A stretch of 64,000 bases of DNA from Rubeoparvulum massiliense (GTDB taxonomy: Bacteria; Bacillota; Bacilli; Rubeoparvulales; Rubeoparvulaceae). Made by a program: the position numbers and the translations under genes. The notes under the pieces are model-generated. The model did no database searches. It saw nothing but the letters and a program-made list of their open reading frames with translations, and had not been told where the DNA came from. Positions 1 through 8,134 of the stretch are shown here, piece after piece. The stretch spans positions 124,001 to 188,000 of the forward strand of contig NZ_CVPE01000004.1 in NCBI RefSeq assembly GCF_001049895.1, written 5' to 3'. Every line of letters starts with the position of its first letter. Position 1 is the stretch's first letter.

Positions 1-3000
1 GTCACCAAACTCTTTTTCATAGTCTTCTCTTGTACCGAGTTCCTGCCAAAGTATCTTTTCAAAATACTTAATATCATCTTCTGTTAAAGGTTTATTATTT
101 CTAAGTTTATAGATCACCATGTCATTCTGGTGGTCCATTAAGTACTTATTGACCTTTTTACGATAGCTCTGCATGTCATTGACTGAATATTCACCAGGGC
201 TTTCTTTTGTTTCCATAATTTCATCAGTAAAATTAGTATAGTAAATTTCGCCCGACTTGCTATCTAGGTATTTGATTAAGTCCCTCAACGCTTCACGGAC
301 TTCTTCATGGTCAAAAATATCTGCTGCTTCCCAATATTCATTGGTCTGAACTTTATAGATCAGTTCTTCTTGCTGTTTGACCTTCTCAATGGTGCCTTTG
401 AATGTGAGTTTTTCTGCTGTACTTACAACACGATTCTTAGGCTTTGAAGCTGGTACGCGCTTAATATCAGCATACTCGATGGTATACATTAAATAATCAA
501 ATCGCTTGGCTAATTCGTCATCATCGATGGCTGGTACAAGTGGCGCAATGTGTTCTTCAATATCTCTTACATCAGCATCAGATAGACTTTCAAATCCGCT
601 TTCTTGATTGAACTTATGAATGATTTGAAGTTTCATTCTTGCATTGAACTTACTCTCATCAATGCTCTTTATTTCCTTCAAAACACCTTCAATCAGAGCA
701 TTTCTATGCTCAATGTATTCTTCAGTCTGATAATCCATGATTTGCAGCTCTTTTATGATGCCAATACGGATATTGAAAAGATTTTCTGTGAGTGACTTCA
801 TCATCTTGGCTTCTTTACCGTTTTTATTGGTTCTAAAGAACTCAAAGTTACCACAGTAGTCAAAGATTCTAAAGCCTTCTTTATCCAATCCCACACCATA
901 TAAATCTTCACATAATCTAGTGCCACGGCCAATCATCTGCCAAAACTTAGTTTTTGAACGCACCTTTTTGAAGAAAACAAGATTTAGTATCTCAGGAATA
1001 TCAATACCAGTATCCAACATATCCACAGATACAGCTATTTGCGGCAGCTTTGTTTTTACTTCAAAGTCATCCATAGTACTTTCTACATAATTGATACCCG
1101 TATAAACAAGTTTAGCAAAGTTACCATGGTATTCAGGGTAAAGGCTATTAAAGCGTTTTACGATAAAGTCTGCATGTTTTTTATTCTTGGCAAAGATAAT
1201 GGTTTTGCCCAGCTTGTCGCCACCTTCAACTTTTAATCCTTTTTTCATCAGTTCTTGAAGGACTGTATCAATGGTGTTGTCATTAAACAGGAATGAATTC
1301 AATGCTTCCCCACTGATGTCTTTTACATCATCATCAAAGGTTTCTTCAAACTGTTCTTTTTCTTCATCTGTCAGGTCATCATAATGAATGCCTTCTTCAA
1401 GGAATTTCATCTTAGTTTCTATGGTATGATAAGGCACCAAATAGCCATCTTCAATAGCTTCACCTAACTCATATGCATAAGTAGGTACATTATTTTCAAG
1501 TTCAAAAATGGTATAGGTGTTCTTATCAAGGTCATTTTTAGGTGTTGCTGTAAGTCCTAATAAAATGGCATCAAAGTAATTGAAAATATCCTGATATTTT
1601 TTATAAATACTTCGGTGACTTTCATCAATAATAATCAGGTCGAAGTGTCCACTAGTAAAAAGCTTTTCACTTCGTTTGTTTTTTACATCATCAATGGCAT
1701 TCATCATTGTTGGATAAGTTGAAAACACCATCCTACTTTCTGGGTTGTCCTTACTGTCTAATAGGTTACAAAGAGACAGTTCCGGTAACAGTGCCTTAAA
1801 ATTCTTCTTTGCCTGTTTTACTAATGCTGTACGGTCAGCAAGGAAAAGAATATTTTTAACCCAACCTCTTTTAATCAATACATCTACTGTTGATATGGCG
1901 GTCCTTGTCTTTCCTGAACCTGTTGCCATAACAAGTAGAGCCTTACGATTGCCTTTTTCAAGGGTATCACACACCGCTGTAATAGCCATCTTTTGATAGT
2001 GACGATTGGTGATATCATCGTTTATTATAGGGTCTTTCAAAGATGATTTGTTTTCTCGTTTAAAGTGTAGCCACTCCAGTTCTTCTTTCGTATAAATACC
2101 TGATACTAAGCGCTCTGGATAGCTGGCATCATCCCATAAATAATATTCAAAACCGTTCGTGTAGAAAATTGCCGGTCTAACCTTGTACTGTTTTTCTAGG
2201 CAATCTGCATAACGCTGCGCTTGTATCTGACCTACACGTGGATTTACACTGGTTTTCTTGGCTTCAATAACTGCCAGTGGTTTGCCATTATCACCAAAAA
2301 GGACATAGTCTACATAACCTAGACCTGCTTGATTAGGCATACCTTCCACTTCAACTTCCTCTAGACAATCCTTGCCGATAATCCAGCCGTTAAGCTCAAT
2401 TTCTAAATCAATATACATCTTCCTTGTCTTGAATTCAGAAATCTCATCAACTTTAAACTCACGGTTTTTCTTATTATCAATACGCTTGGCTGCATTAGTA
2501 CGCCTTAGTTCTTCATTTTCCTTGATAATCTCTTCAAGTTTACGGTCTTTAGCACCCAATCGGTCATAAAGGTCTTTTAGCTCATCTCTTGTCTTTTTCT
2601 CTTTTTCATTATCTCCAAGTAAGCTTTCATCGAAGGCAATCTCTTCATAAACATCTGAATAACAATAATCAATCCACGAAATAAATTCAAATAGATTGTG
2701 AAGGGCAAGCACTGCCTGCTCTCTTGTAATAGGTGCAGCCGAATGGACTGCTTTATTGCCGATTTGTTGAATATACTTAATCATTGGGAAGAGTTTCGTA
2801 TCAATAATCCCTTTAAACCGATAATCATGAATCAAAGATGCTAGATTATCCTGATAAGGTGCTTCAAGTTCATGGTCATAAGAAAAGACCCACTTAACAG
2901 CCAATTCCAAGGCTCTACGTGCAAGAATCGCTGTACTGGCATAGGAAACCACCAAGCTCTTTTCAGCTTCGATACAGGCGTATGTAAAGTCCTTATATTT

Positions 3001-3036
3001 TTCTTCTTTTTTCAGGAAATCAAAGTTGTAGCACAT
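1..3036 (-). CDS. hsdR: Type I restriction enzyme R subunit HsdR (3' end beyond window)
   Basis: ATP-dependent translocase/endonuclease subunit of a type I restriction-modification complex. About 1,012 codons are visible; the C-terminus lies left of position 1, so this is partial only because of the window edge. The start ATG at 3036 follows a strong AAGGGGG ribosome site. Visible parts in order: a DUF4145-like N-terminus (about residues 15-110), an HSDR_N nuclease domain with 'VIEAKK' near residue 255, Walker A 'ATGSGKT' near 370, DEAD-type 'IIDESH' near 469, and helicase motif VI 'MIGRGTR' near 702. It is the last visible gene of the hsd operon, 19 nt after the HNH gene. Base composition is clearly more AT-rich than the core genes to the right, which suggests transfer. 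Confidence 0.97.
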   Translation of the reverse strand, partial: MCYNFDFLKKEEKYKDFTYACIEAEKSLVVSYASTAILARRALELAVKWVFSYDHELEAPYQDNLASLIHDYRFKGIIDTKLFPMIKYIQQIGNKAVHSAAPITREQAVLALHNLFEFISWIDYCYSDVYEEIAFDESLLGDNEKEKKTRDELKDLYDRLGAKDRKLEEIIKENEELRRTNAAKRIDNKKNREFKVDEISEFKTRKMYIDLEIELNGWIIGKDCLEEVEVEGMPNQAGLGYVDYVLFGDNGKPLAVIEAKKTSVNPRVGQIQAQRYADCLEKQYKVRPAIFYTNGFEYYLWDDASYPERLVSGIYTKEELEWLHFKRENKSSLKDPIINDDITNRHYQKMAITAVCDTLEKGNRKALLVMATGSGKTRTAISTVDVLIKRGWVKNILFLADRTALVKQAKKNFKALLPELSLCNLLDSKDNPESRMVFSTYPTMMNAIDDVKNKRSEKLFTSGHFDLIIIDESHRSIYKKYQDIFNYFDAILLGLTATPKNDLDKNTYTIFELENNVPTYAYELGEAIEDGYLVPYHTIETKMKFLEEGIHYDDLTDEEKEQFEETFDDDVKDISGEALNSFLFNDNTIDTVLQELMKKGLKVEGGDKLGKTIIFAKNKKHADFIVKRFNSLYPEYHGNFAKLVYTGINYVESTMDDFEVKTKLPQIAVSVDMLDTGIDIPEILNLVFFKKVRSKTKFWQMIGRGTRLCEDLYGVGLDKEGFRIFDYCGNFEFFRTNKNGKEAKMMKSLTENLFNIRIGIIKELQIMDYQTEEYIEHRNALIEGVLKEIKSIDESKFNARMKLQIIHKFNQESGFESLSDADVRDIEEHIAPLVPAIDDDELAKRFDYLMYTIEYADIKRVPASKPKNRVVSTAEKLTFKGTIEKVKQQEELIYKVQTNEYWEAADIFDHEEVREALRDLIKYLDSKSGEIYYTNFTDEIMETKESPGEYSVNDMQSYRKKVNKYLMDHQNDMVIYKLRNNKPLTEDDIKYFEKILWQELGTREDYEKEFGD

Positions 3037-3055: not shown

Positions 3056-3997
3056 CTATAATGCTTCTAAAGTCGCTTTCTTTATAAATTTATGATCTTG
3101 CATTTTATTTGATTTACATCTTTCTATTTCAGCATTTTTTGCTGTTTCTAAATCAATATTGTAAATACCAACAGCTTCAGAAACATTTGACATCCATCCA
3201 CTAAGATTTACTTCAGCAAAATTTCTTATCCGATCTTTAATTCCAAACACTTCATTCCAAGTCTCTATCTCACCTTGAAAACGCTGGCTATTTATTTCAA
3301 GATTTTCAATAACACCAGTTCGAATAGTAAAAACAGGCTCACAGTCATTATCGTCTCTCGTAAATGGATAAAACACTTTACCATAATCTCTAGGATTCTT
3401 ATCACCTTTATATGTAGAATTACACGTATGACAAATAGGAAAAAGATTTTTCCTCAGTAATGAAACGAATGGATATTTTGATCGTGGTAGATAATGATCA
3501 AAAGCCTCTCGAAATTGGTCTTTTGACGTTAGCATAGGTTCTATTCCACAAAATGGACAAACATATTCTATTGATTCATCATAAAACTTTTCATAATAAT
3601 TTTTGAGAGTTCCTACTTCTTCAACAAGACCCTTTAGTTTCAATAAATTATCATATAAATAGTCCTGTATTGTTTTTAAAGCCCTTATACATTGTACAAA
3701 ATCTTCGCTTGATCCACTAAGTAAACCCTCATAAGAAATCGGATCAATGGTCATATTACATATATTTTCAACTTGAATATTCTTTCTGAAGGCATCCGCT
3801 AACTTATCTTTTTCCACTTGCTGACTTAACTCAAACTTACCTTTAAACTCTTCAAAATCACTTTTGAGTTTGATCTCATTCATCCAGCTTGGATACTTAA
3901 ACACTACAGATGAGAAAATATTAACGAATACACTATTTATTTGGTTTATAAGACTCTCTAATTTTTCATTTTCAAATTCATTATAAAAGTACCACAT
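3056..3997 (-). CDS. HNH endonuclease, PtuB-like, embedded in type I RM operon
   Basis: A 313-residue putative nuclease. The N-terminal half (about 1-140) shows no recognised domain and looks helical. The HNH/zinc core lies at about residues 146-205: 'CPFCG', then 'DHYLPRSKYP' carrying the presumed catalytic His, an Asn in 'KNLFP', then 'CHTCNSTYKGDKNP'. This C-x2-C / DHxxPKxxYP / NLxxxCxxCNxxYKGDK layout is the one known for PtuB/TIGR02646-type HNH proteins. The start ATG directly follows the stop codon of the ATPase gene, with the ribosome site inside the ATPase gene's end, so the two are probably co-translated. The pairing with an ABC-type ATPase matches Septu. The biological target is unknown; it could cut DNA or RNA. 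Confidence 0.85.
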   Translation of the reverse strand: MWYFYNEFENEKLESLINQINSVFVNIFSSVVFKYPSWMNEIKLKSDFEEFKGKFELSQQVEKDKLADAFRKNIQVENICNMTIDPISYEGLLSGSSEDFVQCIRALKTIQDYLYDNLLKLKGLVEEVGTLKNYYEKFYDESIEYVCPFCGIEPMLTSKDQFREAFDHYLPRSKYPFVSLLRKNLFPICHTCNSTYKGDKNPRDYGKVFYPFTRDDNDCEPVFTIRTGVIENLEINSQRFQGEIETWNEVFGIKDRIRNFAEVNLSGWMSNVSEAVGIYNIDLETAKNAEIERCKSNKMQDHKFIKKATLEAL

Positions 3998-5536
3998 TTA
4001 CATCATCCTCTTTTGAATCTCAATGATCAGCATCAAGCGTTCTGATGAATCGCCTAGCACATTTTCAATTTCATGCTTAAGTTCCTCTAAGTCTTGATGA
4101 CTAGTAGTTTGATTAATTTTGTTCCTAAATATATTGATTTCCTGTTTAGCCAATTCTGCCACAGTGTTTCTCTTGTCAAATAAATTTGCACTTATCATAT
4201 TTGGATTAGCTCCAAAAGTCTCAATTTGCAATCCACTTTGCACGCCTCTCTTCATGCTAACAACACTTGTTTTTCTTAAATCTGTTATTACTTCCGGATT
4301 ATGTGATGAAAATACAACTTGTGACATTGGATTAAGCATTGATTTTACTTTTGAGACAAACAAAGACTTCCAACTTGGATTAAAATGTGTCTCTGGCTCA
4401 TCTAATAAAAATAAAATGTTACTTCCGTAAAAGATACTGAGTATGCTAATCAGTTGTAGCACTTGGTACTCTCCATCAGAAAAATTTCTCAATTCCAGTT
4501 CAGAGCCGTTTTCAGTTTTGAAGGTCATTTCAAGTAGTTCAAACACTCTATGATTTGCAATATTCCAATCGACTAAAGATTTCTTGCTTTTTTCATTCCC
4601 GTATATGATTCTGTTTAGAGTCCTTTTCTTAATTTTATAAATATTGTAGTCATAAAGCCTTTGCAGTCCTTCAAAAAAGGCTAATAAGGACATTTGTTCC
4701 CGGTCTCTATTCTCTGGTGCATGAAACTCATAATACTCAAATCCGTTTTCATTTACATGAACTGTATTTGCATAGCTCATAATTTCATTTAATAGATATG
4801 AAGCCTTCTCATCGAAGTAAATATCCTCATCATATATATCTTTCTTATCCAATCTTATCTTAAAGGAAGTCACTAATGCCTTTTCAAAAAATTCTGATAG
4901 AATTCCTTGATATTCAGACTCAAACATAAATGAAGTAAGGATAGCCAATTTACTTATCGTATCATCAAAATAGTAAAACAATTCATTGTAGCGATCAAGA
5001 ATACCCTTATTGATAACCTCGCCGTAATTATTCTTCTTAATCTTCTGACTGTCCTTTTCTGCCAAAGAGTAAAGCTTATAGTTAATGATTTCATCACTAA
5101 TTCCTTCATTATGACCAGATGAGTAAACCACAATCTTTCTGGGAAAGAATACGTAATATATGTTAATGTTTTTTATTTCAAATTCATCTCTCCCATTTGA
5201 AATTATCATTTTGAAATGCTGTGATTGATTTTCTAACTTAATTAACACATAATCAGTAGCTTCCCATTGCCCACCTATTCCTACTAAAACGCTTTCAATC
5301 ATATGATCTTTCTGCAATGAATAAATAGCTTCATAGCTTATATCACTTGAGTAATTCTTCTGAGTTATTTGGTTACTAGCATCAACAAATATTTTGGATA
5401 TCAGTTCAAGTAGAATTGATTTGCCACTGCCATTTATGCCAACTATTCCAAGGGTGGAGTCATCGCCAAAAACAAATTCTTGATTCTGCTTGAAAAGCTT
5501 ATAATCACTCAGCATTTTTATTTTTATTAGTCTCAT
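3998..5536 (-). CDS. ABC/SMC-like AAA ATPase, PtuA-like, restriction-associated
   Basis: A soluble ATPase of about 512 residues with Walker A 'GINGSGKS' (about residues 33-40), an ABC-type signature 'FSDGE' near 355, Walker B 'LFLLDEPETHF' near 377, and a His-switch 'FSSHNPE' near 405. The middle is helical, as in RecF/SMC/PtuA-type proteins. No TOPRIM (OLD-type) or anticodon-nuclease motif was seen. An in-frame TTG lies at 5554, but the ATG at 5536 has GGGGTGGAG just upstream and is preferred. hsdS ends at 5555, so translation is probably coupled. By analogy with Septu PtuA it would sense a phage or DNA state and control the HNH protein encoded next. It could also report on the restriction complex, as PrrC does for EcoprrI. 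Function is inferred. Confidence 0.85.
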   Translation of the reverse strand: MRLIKIKMLSDYKLFKQNQEFVFGDDSTLGIVGINGSGKSILLELISKIFVDASNQITQKNYSSDISYEAIYSLQKDHMIESVLVGIGGQWEATDYVLIKLENQSQHFKMIISNGRDEFEIKNINIYYVFFPRKIVVYSSGHNEGISDEIINYKLYSLAEKDSQKIKKNNYGEVINKGILDRYNELFYYFDDTISKLAILTSFMFESEYQGILSEFFEKALVTSFKIRLDKKDIYDEDIYFDEKASYLLNEIMSYANTVHVNENGFEYYEFHAPENRDREQMSLLAFFEGLQRLYDYNIYKIKKRTLNRIIYGNEKSKKSLVDWNIANHRVFELLEMTFKTENGSELELRNFSDGEYQVLQLISILSIFYGSNILFLLDEPETHFNPSWKSLFVSKVKSMLNPMSQVVFSSHNPEVITDLRKTSVVSMKRGVQSGLQIETFGANPNMISANLFDKRNTVAELAKQEINIFRNKINQTTSHQDLEELKHEIENVLGDSSERLMLIIEIQKRMM

Positions 5537-5554
5537 CACTCCACCCCGTTTCAA

Positions 5555-6667
5555 TTAAAATAATTTTCCAACGAATGCCTTTTGCATAATTGAAGAATAG
5601 CTATCTTCATAATCTCTGATTGATTCACTAAGTTTTTTTCTTTCTTTTTCTATTTTAGATACAATAGCTGCGAAATCGTTCTGTAAATCTATTGGTGGCA
5701 GATTTATTCTTATCTTCTTTAGCTCTTCAGCATTAATATTAGCCATCCCAACAATACTTTTTGCCATATTTAATAAAGTAGCCTTGCCATGTTTAGAATT
5801 CAAGTATGCAGAAATATACTCTGTATTCCCTCTTGTGTTTGTTATAAGTTTGACCAAGTATCCTGCATAAGCCATTGGTTTATTTTCTCTATATACAGCT
5901 GCCTTACCAACAAGCTCTTTGCTATTAGTCCTGTTAAATAGCATTTCTCCTTCATTAACCAAATATTTTTCTAACTCTTTCTCATTTAAATCTACATATT
6001 TTAAACTTGAAAAATCCCATCCCCCAGTATAAGTAATATTATTCATTCTTAACACAGGATACTCACCGTCAGTTTCATGTGCTTTTTTGCTTGTGCCATA
6101 TTGTGTTTTCGATGTTAAATCATTAATAGTCCCAGTTTCCCACCCCTTCGAATTTGTCACAGGATCACCAAACATTTCATAAAACACCGACTGAATCAAC
6201 TCATCCATCAGCCTAATTTGCTCTTTTCGTGCATCAATAAGCCCCTGAGCCTTGTCCAATACTTCAACGATTTTCTTTTGGATTTCGAGGGGTGGTAACG
6301 GAATTTGAGCATCTGTAAGAGCACCCAATTTAATATACTTGATTACTCCACCAATCGAATTATTTCTAAGGATGTCAATGTACTTATTCATGAAGTAGTA
6401 CAAAAATCTTACATCAAGTACTGTCTTATCATTTGACTCAACTATATAAGTCCTCTGATAGGCATTAAACTTTCCTTCATAATATTTAACATTTAAATCG
6501 CCATTCCCAGCAATTAATACACATTCACAATCATATGCAAAATTATCAATCCAAAGATTGTTCACTGAGCATGTAAAGAATGGATACTCTCCATTCTCGC
6601 TACTAGCATTAGCATCTAATTTCCCTGTTTTGATCTTTACATAATCACCTAGACGTTTTAGCTCCAT
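5555..6667 (-). CDS. hsdS: Type I restriction enzyme specificity subunit HsdS
   Basis: DNA-recognition subunit that gives the HsdM/HsdR complexes their sequence specificity. The 370 residues split into two target recognition domains: TRD1 at about 1-130 and TRD2 at about 175-325. Each is followed by a conserved helical spacer ('LPPLEIQKKIVEVLDKAQ' near 124 and 'LPPIDLQNDFAAIVSKIE' near 325), and the protein ends in the typical 'MQKAFVGKLF'. Length is slightly short of the usual 380-450 residues but both TRDs are present. It starts 3 nt after the hsdM stop. The bipartite target site cannot be deduced from the sequence. Confidence 0.95.
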   Translation of the reverse strand: MELKRLGDYVKIKTGKLDANASSENGEYPFFTCSVNNLWIDNFAYDCECVLIAGNGDLNVKYYEGKFNAYQRTYIVESNDKTVLDVRFLYYFMNKYIDILRNNSIGGVIKYIKLGALTDAQIPLPPLEIQKKIVEVLDKAQGLIDARKEQIRLMDELIQSVFYEMFGDPVTNSKGWETGTINDLTSKTQYGTSKKAHETDGEYPVLRMNNITYTGGWDFSSLKYVDLNEKELEKYLVNEGEMLFNRTNSKELVGKAAVYRENKPMAYAGYLVKLITNTRGNTEYISAYLNSKHGKATLLNMAKSIVGMANINAEELKKIRINLPPIDLQNDFAAIVSKIEKERKKLSESIRDYEDSYSSIMQKAFVGKLF

Positions 6668-6670
6668 ATT

Positions 6671-8134
6671 TTACACCATCCTCTCAATGTCATTAAGACC
6701 ATCAAGAATCTGCTGTTCTAACTCTTTGATTCTTTGAATAATAATCTTTGGTGCTTCATACTCCACTTCGTCATATTCAATTTCTTTATATCTATTGATA
6801 GATAAGTCATAATCATACTTTACAATTTCCTCTTTAAGAACATAGAATGACTTCTCCGTACGCTTTCTATCCTTTTCATTTTCAAGGTTATGGTAACGGC
6901 TGATAATATCAGGAATGTCGTTAGCATCCACTGGTTGACGCTTATCATCAAGGGATAAGCCATCTGCCTGCATATCATAAAACCAGACTTTATCTGTACC
7001 GCCTGCATCAGTCTTCGTGAAAATCATAATAGCAGTTGAAACCCCAGCGTAAGGCTTGAACACGCCACTAGGCATGGAGATAATTGCTTGAAGCTGATGA
7101 TTTTCAACAATTTCTTTACGAATGGATTTATGGGCATTAGAGCTACCGAATAATACGCCATCTGGTACGATAGATGCACATCTGCCGCCTTTTTTAAGAA
7201 TTCTTAAGAAAAGGGCTAAGAATAAAAGCTCTGTCTTCTTAGTTTTTGTCACTTTCAATAGGTCTGCCGATACACTGTCATAGTCAAGCGATCCTTTAAA
7301 AGGTGGATTTGCTAGGACAAGTGTGTATTTTTCTCTATCTTTATTGCTTTCTGATAATGAATCCCTATATTCAATATTTGGTCTATCAACACCATGAAGC
7401 ATCATGTTCATAGCACCGATACGAAGCATAGTTCTGTCCATGTCATTACCGAAGAACATGTCATTGTGATAATGGTCCTTCAGTTCTTTAATGGTGAACA
7501 TATCCTCATTATTTCGTTTTAGATACTCCCCTGCTTCAACAAGGAATCCTGCTGAACCGGCTGCAGGGTCAACAATAATATCCGTAGGTGTTGGCTGCAT
7601 CAAATCCACCATCATTTTGATGATGTGTCTAGGTGTTCTAAACTGTCCATTTGTTCCTGCTGTTGCTACCTTAGAAAGCAAATACTCGTATAAATCCCCT
7701 TTGGTATCATCTGTTGTATTGCCTTCTTTAACAGGTAGTCCGTCAATATTTGTAACAATCTTTTCTAACATCTGTGGTGTTGGAATCATAAAGATGGCAT
7801 CATCCATGTATTTGGTAAAAGCTGAATCCTTATCACCATGCATAGTCTTGATAAATGGAAACACTTTTTTTGAAACTGTTTCATACATGTCAGAAGCACT
7901 CATTTGCTTGAATTTATGCCATCTTAGGTTTTGCTGATCATCATTAAATATTTTATTAAAGTCTGTACCTACAAACTCCGCCAGCTTTTCTTCTTCCTTT
8001 TGCTTGTCATCAAGTCCTTTTATAAATAAAAGGTAGGTAAACTGCTCAATAACAGACAGCGGATTGGTAATCCCACCGGTCCAAAATATCTCCCATATTT
8101 TATCTACCTTACTTCTTAACTCACCTGTAATCAT
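6671..8134 (-). CDS. hsdM: Type I restriction enzyme methylase subunit HsdM
   Basis: N6-adenine DNA methyltransferase subunit. In 487 residues it shows an HsdM N-terminal helical domain (about 8-140), SAM motif I 'DPAAGSAGF' near residue 190, and catalytic motif IV 'NPPF' near residue 276, the normal family layout and length. GGGAGGG lies 8-9 nt before the ATG. It is the first enzyme gene of the operon, following the small XRE regulator by 34 nt, and is followed by hsdS. It acts with HsdS as an M2S1 methylase and with HsdR as the restriction complex. Confidence 0.97.
   Translation of the reverse strand: MITGELRSKVDKIWEIFWTGGITNPLSVIEQFTYLLFIKGLDDKQKEEEKLAEFVGTDFNKIFNDDQQNLRWHKFKQMSASDMYETVSKKVFPFIKTMHGDKDSAFTKYMDDAIFMIPTPQMLEKIVTNIDGLPVKEGNTTDDTKGDLYEYLLSKVATAGTNGQFRTPRHIIKMMVDLMQPTPTDIIVDPAAGSAGFLVEAGEYLKRNNEDMFTIKELKDHYHNDMFFGNDMDRTMLRIGAMNMMLHGVDRPNIEYRDSLSESNKDREKYTLVLANPPFKGSLDYDSVSADLLKVTKTKKTELLFLALFLRILKKGGRCASIVPDGVLFGSSNAHKSIRKEIVENHQLQAIISMPSGVFKPYAGVSTAIMIFTKTDAGGTDKVWFYDMQADGLSLDDKRQPVDANDIPDIISRYHNLENEKDRKRTEKSFYVLKEEIVKYDYDLSINRYKEIEYDEVEYEAPKIIIQRIKELEQQILDGLNDIERMV

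Follow-up and report, generated by a model that had tools for sequence, protein, structure and literature searches.

A PtuA-like ABC ATPase and a PtuB-like HNH nuclease are encoded directly behind the specificity gene of a type I restriction-modification (R-M) operon in Rubeoparvulum massiliense, and the same linkage recurs across at least eight phyla. We consider it evenly balanced whether these genes represent a conserved kind of composite defence, with a Septu-like ATPase-HNH effector belonging to the type I HsdM-HsdS complex and HsdR present or absent. Joined to a type I methyltransferase in an arrangement where HsdR is optional, the Septu-like pair has the look of a second weapon integral to the operon and not of genes that landed there by chance.

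The stretch of DNA analysed (the window; 64,000 nucleotides, C4:124001-188000) belongs to a host genome of 2.84 Mb. The operon lies on the minus strand within the first 8.1 kb of the window, in the order hsdM-hsdS-ATPase-HNH-hsdR, with the following genes and motifs.

6671..8134, minus strand: hsdM, type I DNA adenine methyltransferase, 487 aa, motif LANPPF (Pfam, PADLOC)
5555..6667, minus strand: hsdS, specificity subunit, 370 aa (Pfam Methylase_S 4e-31, PADLOC Specificity_I 2e-106)
3998..5536, minus strand: ABC-type ATPase, PtuA-like, 512 aa, divergent member of the TIGR04435 lineage (PADLOC, NCBIfam, AlphaFold)
5417..5440, minus strand: ATPase Walker A GINGSGKS, aa 33-40; G33, K39 and S40 invariant in 41 ATPases
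4469..4480, minus strand: ATPase ABC signature SDGE, aa 353-356; S353, G355 and E356 invariant in 41 ATPases
4376..4414, minus strand: ATPase Walker B and D-loop LFLLDEPETHFNP, aa 375-387; D379, E380 and H384 invariant
4301..4303, minus strand: ATPase switch histidine H412, invariant
3056..3997, minus strand: HNH nuclease, 313 aa, PtuB-like core and long family-specific N-terminal region (PADLOC)
3407..3559, minus strand: HNH core C147xxC150...D167H168...N184...C189xxC192N193...K197 (conservation, hhalign)
1..3036, minus strand: hsdR, type I restriction/translocase subunit, running off the window (Pfam)

The initial annotation had read these nearly touching genes as one operon, and the intergenic distances agree with it: 3 bp between hsdM and hsdS, 18 bp between hsdS and the ATPase gene, 0 bp between the ATPase and HNH genes, and 19 bp between the HNH gene and hsdR. 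The single operon stands, but its extent was underestimated, as it continues past the window into an Mrr gene. An alternative TTG start of the ATPase gene at 5554 is weaker. All three type I R-M subunits are present with their key domains. HsdM matched Pfam HsdM_N (1.1e-14) and N6_Mtase (4e-66) and PADLOC MTase_I (1e-192), and HsdR, which is complete in the host genome (1107 aa, L034:8713-12036), scored above the cut-offs of Pfam HSDR_N, ResIII, SWI2_SNF2 and EcoEI_R_C. The Mrr-type restriction endonuclease gene (Mrr_N, Mrr_cat; L034:7779-8720) lies just outside the window, at about -1221 to -280 in window coordinates, and shares 8 bp with the end of hsdR; the operon may therefore carry a third restriction activity. 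Genes for a serine recombinase, a RhuM-family protein and a MobC-like small protein were also found beyond hsdR (L034:2719-6616), which suggests that the R-M operon is part of an integrated mobile element.

Assignment of the ATPase and HNH genes to the PtuA/PtuB type was borne out. The ATPase matched the PADLOC PtuA1 model over residues 1-432 (E=1.7e-32) and, more weakly, AriA (E=1.4e-16). Its AlphaFold model (mean pLDDT 76.5) matched PARIS AriA and the PtuA proteins of retrons and Septu with a probability of 1.0, at low TM-scores of 0.3-0.4, so the match shows the fold class only. The ATPase and HNH motifs named from the sequence are all present and intact; ten ATPase motif positions were checked and found invariant across 41 ATPases, and the core of Walker B and the D-loop reads DEPETHFNP (residues 379-387). 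The proposed comparison with restriction-associated AAA families was partly rewarding: TIGR04435 was the best NCBIfam model for the window ATPase, but at 172.5 bits the match fell below the cut-off of 300. The cut-off was passed in nine of ten genomes holding an ATPase relative, with scores of up to 833 bits, and the window ATPase does lie in a restriction operon, as the TIGR04435 name implies.

Similarity of the HNH protein to known families was confined to its core. The best PADLOC match was to PDC-M01B (E=2.4e-14), followed by PtuB1 (E=5.2e-8, residues 125-207 only), and the PDC-M62B model also matched the core. Both PDC-M01 and PDC-M62 are candidate systems, as yet unpublished, whose calls overlap with those of Septu (PMC11811056). 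A Pfam search gave no family, and the HNH protein has no curated family. Against TIGR02646, the PtuB model proposed for the search, the protein scored 14.2 bits with a cut-off of 52.15, and the curated PtuB level of Septu was not reached; the best TIGR02646 match among members of the HNH family had E=8e-5. Alignment of the core to two canonical PtuB proteins by hhalign gave a probability of 94.4. A structure search with the HNH model, the core of which was modelled at low confidence (pLDDT about 59-84), returned no match. The catalytic His and metal residues are present in the core, as in Septu nucleases: D167, H168, N184, N193 and three of the four zinc cysteines are invariant among 42 homologues, the exception being C189, which is replaced in two. 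Outside the zinc knuckle, C80 (window 3758-3760) is kept in 36 of the 42 and lost in the most divergent lineages. Existing annotation names the HNH partner 'HNH endonuclease' in E. coli and 'hypothetical protein' in others.

We examined how far the linkage to hsd genes extends. Nothing close was found within the window's own class when a single window protein was used as query. Plasmid searches with either protein gave matches in a cyanobacterium, Priestia and a Sphingobium plasmid, and on all three plasmids the ATPase-HNH pair lies directly behind hsd genes. An HNH profile was built from the window protein and these three relatives, and its scan of a collection with one genome per species yielded 25 loci, distributed over Pseudomonadota, Bacteroidota, Bacillota, Cyanobacteriota with Sericytochromatia, Chlorobiota, Nitrospirota, Thermodesulfobacteriota and Fermentibacterota. 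As a sample independent of both gene context and the HNH protein, two phyla (398 and 247 genomes) were searched with TIGR04435; all ten new loci had hsdS directly before and the HNH gene directly after the ATPase gene. All loci were scanned with our own HMMs for HsdM, HsdS, HsdR, the ATPase and the HNH protein.

The ATPase is present at 43 loci in at least eight phyla, with hsdS upstream in 41, although the 43 are not independent events, since some are close relatives and L061 and L064 are of the same type. The conserved co-occurrence with hsd genes thus reaches far beyond close relatives, and chance adjacency was rejected because the linkage spans at least eight phyla. Both exceptions are damaged or incomplete: L044 sits at a contig end and starts inside the ATPase gene, and L065 has lost its hsd genes at an IS3 insertion/deletion, with the start of the ATPase also altered. 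With R, M and S for the hsd genes, A for the ATPase and H for the HNH gene, the orders at all 45 loci were R-M-S-A-H (28), M-S-A-H (9), M-S-A-H-R (2), S-A-H (1), S-A-H-M (1), A-H (2) and an HNH fragment (2). The placement between hsdS and hsdR described by the initial annotation does not generalize; it was found only in the window and its close relative L035, and the usual arrangement is hsdR-hsdM-hsdS-ATPase-HNH. Stop and start codons at the hsdS-ATPase and ATPase-HNH junctions are a few bases apart or overlap at nearly all loci. L054 and L055, considered as HNH genes lacking an ATPase, were rejected as truncated fragments.

As controls, PtuB-like loci found by weak similarity to the HNH protein or to canonical PtuB were inspected, and none of the 14 had adjacent hsdM or hsdS, although they do carry ATPase and/or HNH genes; one of them (L032) has hsdR and a piece of hsdS 6 kb away on the opposite strand. 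By gene context, with hsdS upstream at 41 of the 43 loci, the pair studied here is not a free two-gene system of the Septu kind. No relative of the pair was found in the viral contigs and phage genomes searched.

Several loci carry additional genes or are rearranged. A second N6-methyltransferase-like gene lies between hsdS and the ATPase gene on a Herpetosiphon plasmid (L062:5356-7227), the sole locus with an insertion at this point, and genes for 8xMP (octameric membrane protein) and GIY-YIG/DUF4357 proteins lie between hsdM and hsdS on the Sphingobium plasmid (L013:4824-6541). On the Priestia plasmid a Schlafen-group-3 helicase gene (L012:3025-4908) precedes the HsdR-less M-S-ATPase-HNH operon. 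The rearranged hsdS-ATPase-HNH-hsdM locus L081:6852-12485 may be a broken copy, its ATPase being read in two frames that overlap.

The pair has also been inherited with its neighbours. Pairwise distances of the ATPase correlated with those of HsdM (r=0.87), HsdR (r=0.86) and the HNH protein (r=0.92; permutation p=0.0005 for each), and the HsdM-HsdR correlation was 0.97. Members linked to hsd genes occupy one side of a branch in the ATPase tree, requiring one change compared to 10.9 in shuffles; this split has an SH-aLRT of 90 and is not starred, and the deep part of the tree is of limited reliability because of its long branches. The same label required two changes on the HNH tree, compared to 11 in shuffles. 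Between the window and L035, HsdM is 96% identical, HsdR 98%, the ATPase 93% and the HNH protein 87%, whereas HsdS (window 5555-6667 and L035:5380-6573) is only 37% identical, indicating an exchange of specificity in which the pair was retained together with M and R. Specificity exchange is usual in type I families. Ratios of dN/dS relative to L035, the nearest relative, were 0.086 for the ATPase and 0.153 for the HNH protein, indicating purifying selection; given these low values and the intact motifs, recent decay of the pair was rejected.

The pair had been described as tied to the R-M genes, and this holds for hsdS and hsdM but not for hsdR, which is dispensable. On four branches of the ATPase tree hsdR was lost while hsdM, hsdS, ATPase and HNH genes stayed. 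The five examined M-S-A-H loci with no hsdR nearby are L064 (an E. coli tRNA-Asn island), L063 (a Hymenobacter plasmid), L012 (the Priestia plasmid), and L088 and L089 from related genomes. No HSDR_N gene occurs anywhere on the Hymenobacter or Priestia plasmid. No HsdR resembling the usual partner is encoded in the L089 genome, and only weakly similar ones in the L088 genome, but both genomes hold other, unlinked type I hsdR genes. The HsdM motif NPPF is kept in all 39 full-length sequences, those of the five HsdR-less systems included. As the HNH and ATPase motifs are likewise kept, the methylation genes and the pair are conserved where HsdR restriction is gone, and the pair goes with the methylase-specificity complex rather than with HsdR.

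Among 5426 E. coli genomes, the pair was found in 96, a cognate hsdM in 95 and a cognate hsdR in 10 (hsdM and hsdR counted at 80% coverage or more; that the 95 hsdM genomes are pair genomes rests on the counts and coordinates rather than on comparing the complete lists). The 85 HsdR-less E. coli copies are at least 99% identical and therefore represent one lineage or event, not 85. In the tRNA-Asn island (L061/L064) the HsdR-less operon adjoins a conjugative T4SS and an ArdC anti-restriction gene, and the element carrying it in 85 of the 5426 genomes looks like an integrated one. The hsdM frameshift of E. coli 51008369SK1 consists of one base in a G run, possibly a sequencing error, and was left out of the evidence.

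Gene order, linkage and co-inheritance are shown by the data, as are the catalytic motifs and the fact that hsdR can be dispensed with; how such a system might work we infer from them. An M2S complex would mark self DNA and sense foreign or blocked DNA, and its state would be relayed to an ATPase oligomer by direct contact or by local DNA events. The resting oligomer may hold the HNH nuclease inactive and, once switched, would free it to cut nucleic acid, either DNA as for Septu or tRNA as for the PtuAB of retron-Eco7. Reports describe action on nicked DNA for Septu PtuAB and depletion of tRNA-Tyr for the retron-Eco7 PtuAB (PMC11555353). HsdR, where present, would be a parallel first weapon and not a guarded object. 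Against this explanation, HsdR may be supplied in trans in the L088 and L089 genomes. That HsdM-HsdS commands a Septu-like effector instead of or beside HsdR, such that the restriction arm was supplemented and repeatedly replaced and a distinct type I-derived class arose, is a reading we hold tentatively and at somewhat less than even confidence.

The main rival, which takes up the initial annotation's idea of release when restriction is blocked and which we regard as possible but rather unlikely, follows the example of PrrC: the Hsd complex would silence the pair, and anti-restriction proteins of the Ocr, Stp or ArdA type that block or reshape the complex would free the nuclease, aborting the infection. 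Such a guard would not need HsdR, as it is the M2S core to which DNA-mimic inhibitors bind. The fold of AriA, which has also been solved with Ocr, is among the best matches of the ATPase, and there is a precedent in PrrC, which lies in a type I locus and is released when T4 Stp inhibits EcoprrI (PMC12707154). Yet hsdR was lost four times and the pair kept, and in E. coli EC-107 (L094:3171-6049) an IS3 element breaks hsdS while hsdM, ATPase and HNH remain intact, the latter two being the same sequence records as in intact strains. Loss of the complete Hsd complex therefore did not force loss of the pair in EC-107, where silencing by the IS is possible; this strain is a natural test strain for the guard model.

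The pair could instead be an independent passenger, a stand-alone Septu-like system sharing only a promoter and mobility with the type I operon. It is a general tendency for defence genes to be embedded within other systems: TgvAB sits in a type I locus and protects without the hsd genes (PMC11411939), and DarTG2 is likewise found inside type I loci (PMC12255303). Over such evolutionary distances, however, a passenger would be expected to escape or vary in position, whereas the linkage is near-perfect in at least eight phyla, with the pair in a single fixed position behind hsdS, no intact free-standing relative was seen among the loci examined, and the distances of the pair track those of HsdM; we consider this explanation improbable. 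We give very little credence to an accessory nuclease that assists HsdR by cleaning up or amplifying DNA broken by the type I enzyme. Septu's reported action on nicked DNA and the presence of hsdR at most loci would suit such a role, but a linked hsdR is missing from four lineages, and HSDR_N genes are absent altogether from the two HsdR-less plasmids.

Should HsdM-HsdS command the pair, the methylation-based self/non-self sensor of type I R-M could drive effectors besides HsdR, and restriction would be connected with ATPase-gated nucleases of the PtuA/AriA class. HsdM-HsdS genes now annotated as 'orphan', without a restriction subunit, would then in some cases be parts of complete defence systems. 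A compact system occurs in E. coli, including a natural HsdR-less form, which makes the role of an endonuclease-less M-S complex directly testable.

The ATPase belongs to the lineage of TIGR04435, the NCBIfam 'restriction system-associated AAA family ATPase', a name which shows that curators had noticed its tie to restriction systems. It covers the ATPase alone; the HNH partner falls outside it, as do the fixed gene order and the forms lacking HsdR. Our literature search, which did not extend to bioRxiv, so that earlier notice in a preprint is possible, found no paper naming TIGR04435 and none on a PtuAB-type pair in type I operons; the description of the pair as under-described was fair, as the ATPase has a restriction-associated name and no functional paper was found.

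MADS is likewise associated with methylation and resembles the operon in that an ABC ATPase is combined with a methylase and a specificity protein in a single system. It is an eight-gene set, however, and scores here were far below the curated cut-offs for MAD2 (102 of 720 bits), MAD3 (19.5 of 420) and MAD5 (42.7 of 400), so this identity was rejected. PARIS (AriA-AriB) is similar in its ATPase, AriA being among the best fold matches, but AriB is a TOPRIM nuclease and the partner here is of the HNH type; to our knowledge, PARIS is not built into hsd operons. PrrC, with the type IC system EcoprrI, likewise couples a nucleotidase to a nuclease inside a type I operon. It is one protein, in which an ABC NTPase is joined to a tRNA anticodon nuclease, whereas here separate genes encode two proteins, the nuclease is of the HNH type and hsdR can be missing. 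TgvAB and DarTG2 are also defence pairs inserted in type I operons but belong to unrelated nuclease families, and TgvAB does not depend on the hsd genes.

The same ATPase-HNH pairing is found in the PtuA-PtuB effectors of type I-A retrons (Ec78/Eco7, Ec83), which rank, in both sequence and fold, with the closest of the solved structures. No reverse transcriptase was recognised among the neighbours read, the flanks being hsdS and hsdR, and the pair was accordingly rejected as a Septu type II/retron I-A system; in place of the reverse transcriptase/msDNA gene, a type I methyltransferase is the neighbour. Septu itself shares the order of an ABC ATPase followed by an HNH protein, the PtuA-type sequence and fold, and the PtuB-type HNH core. 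The HNH protein described here differs in being longer, similar over the core only and below the TIGR02646 cut-off, and whereas the canonical pairs tested lie without adjacent hsdM or hsdS, this pair is fixed behind hsdS.
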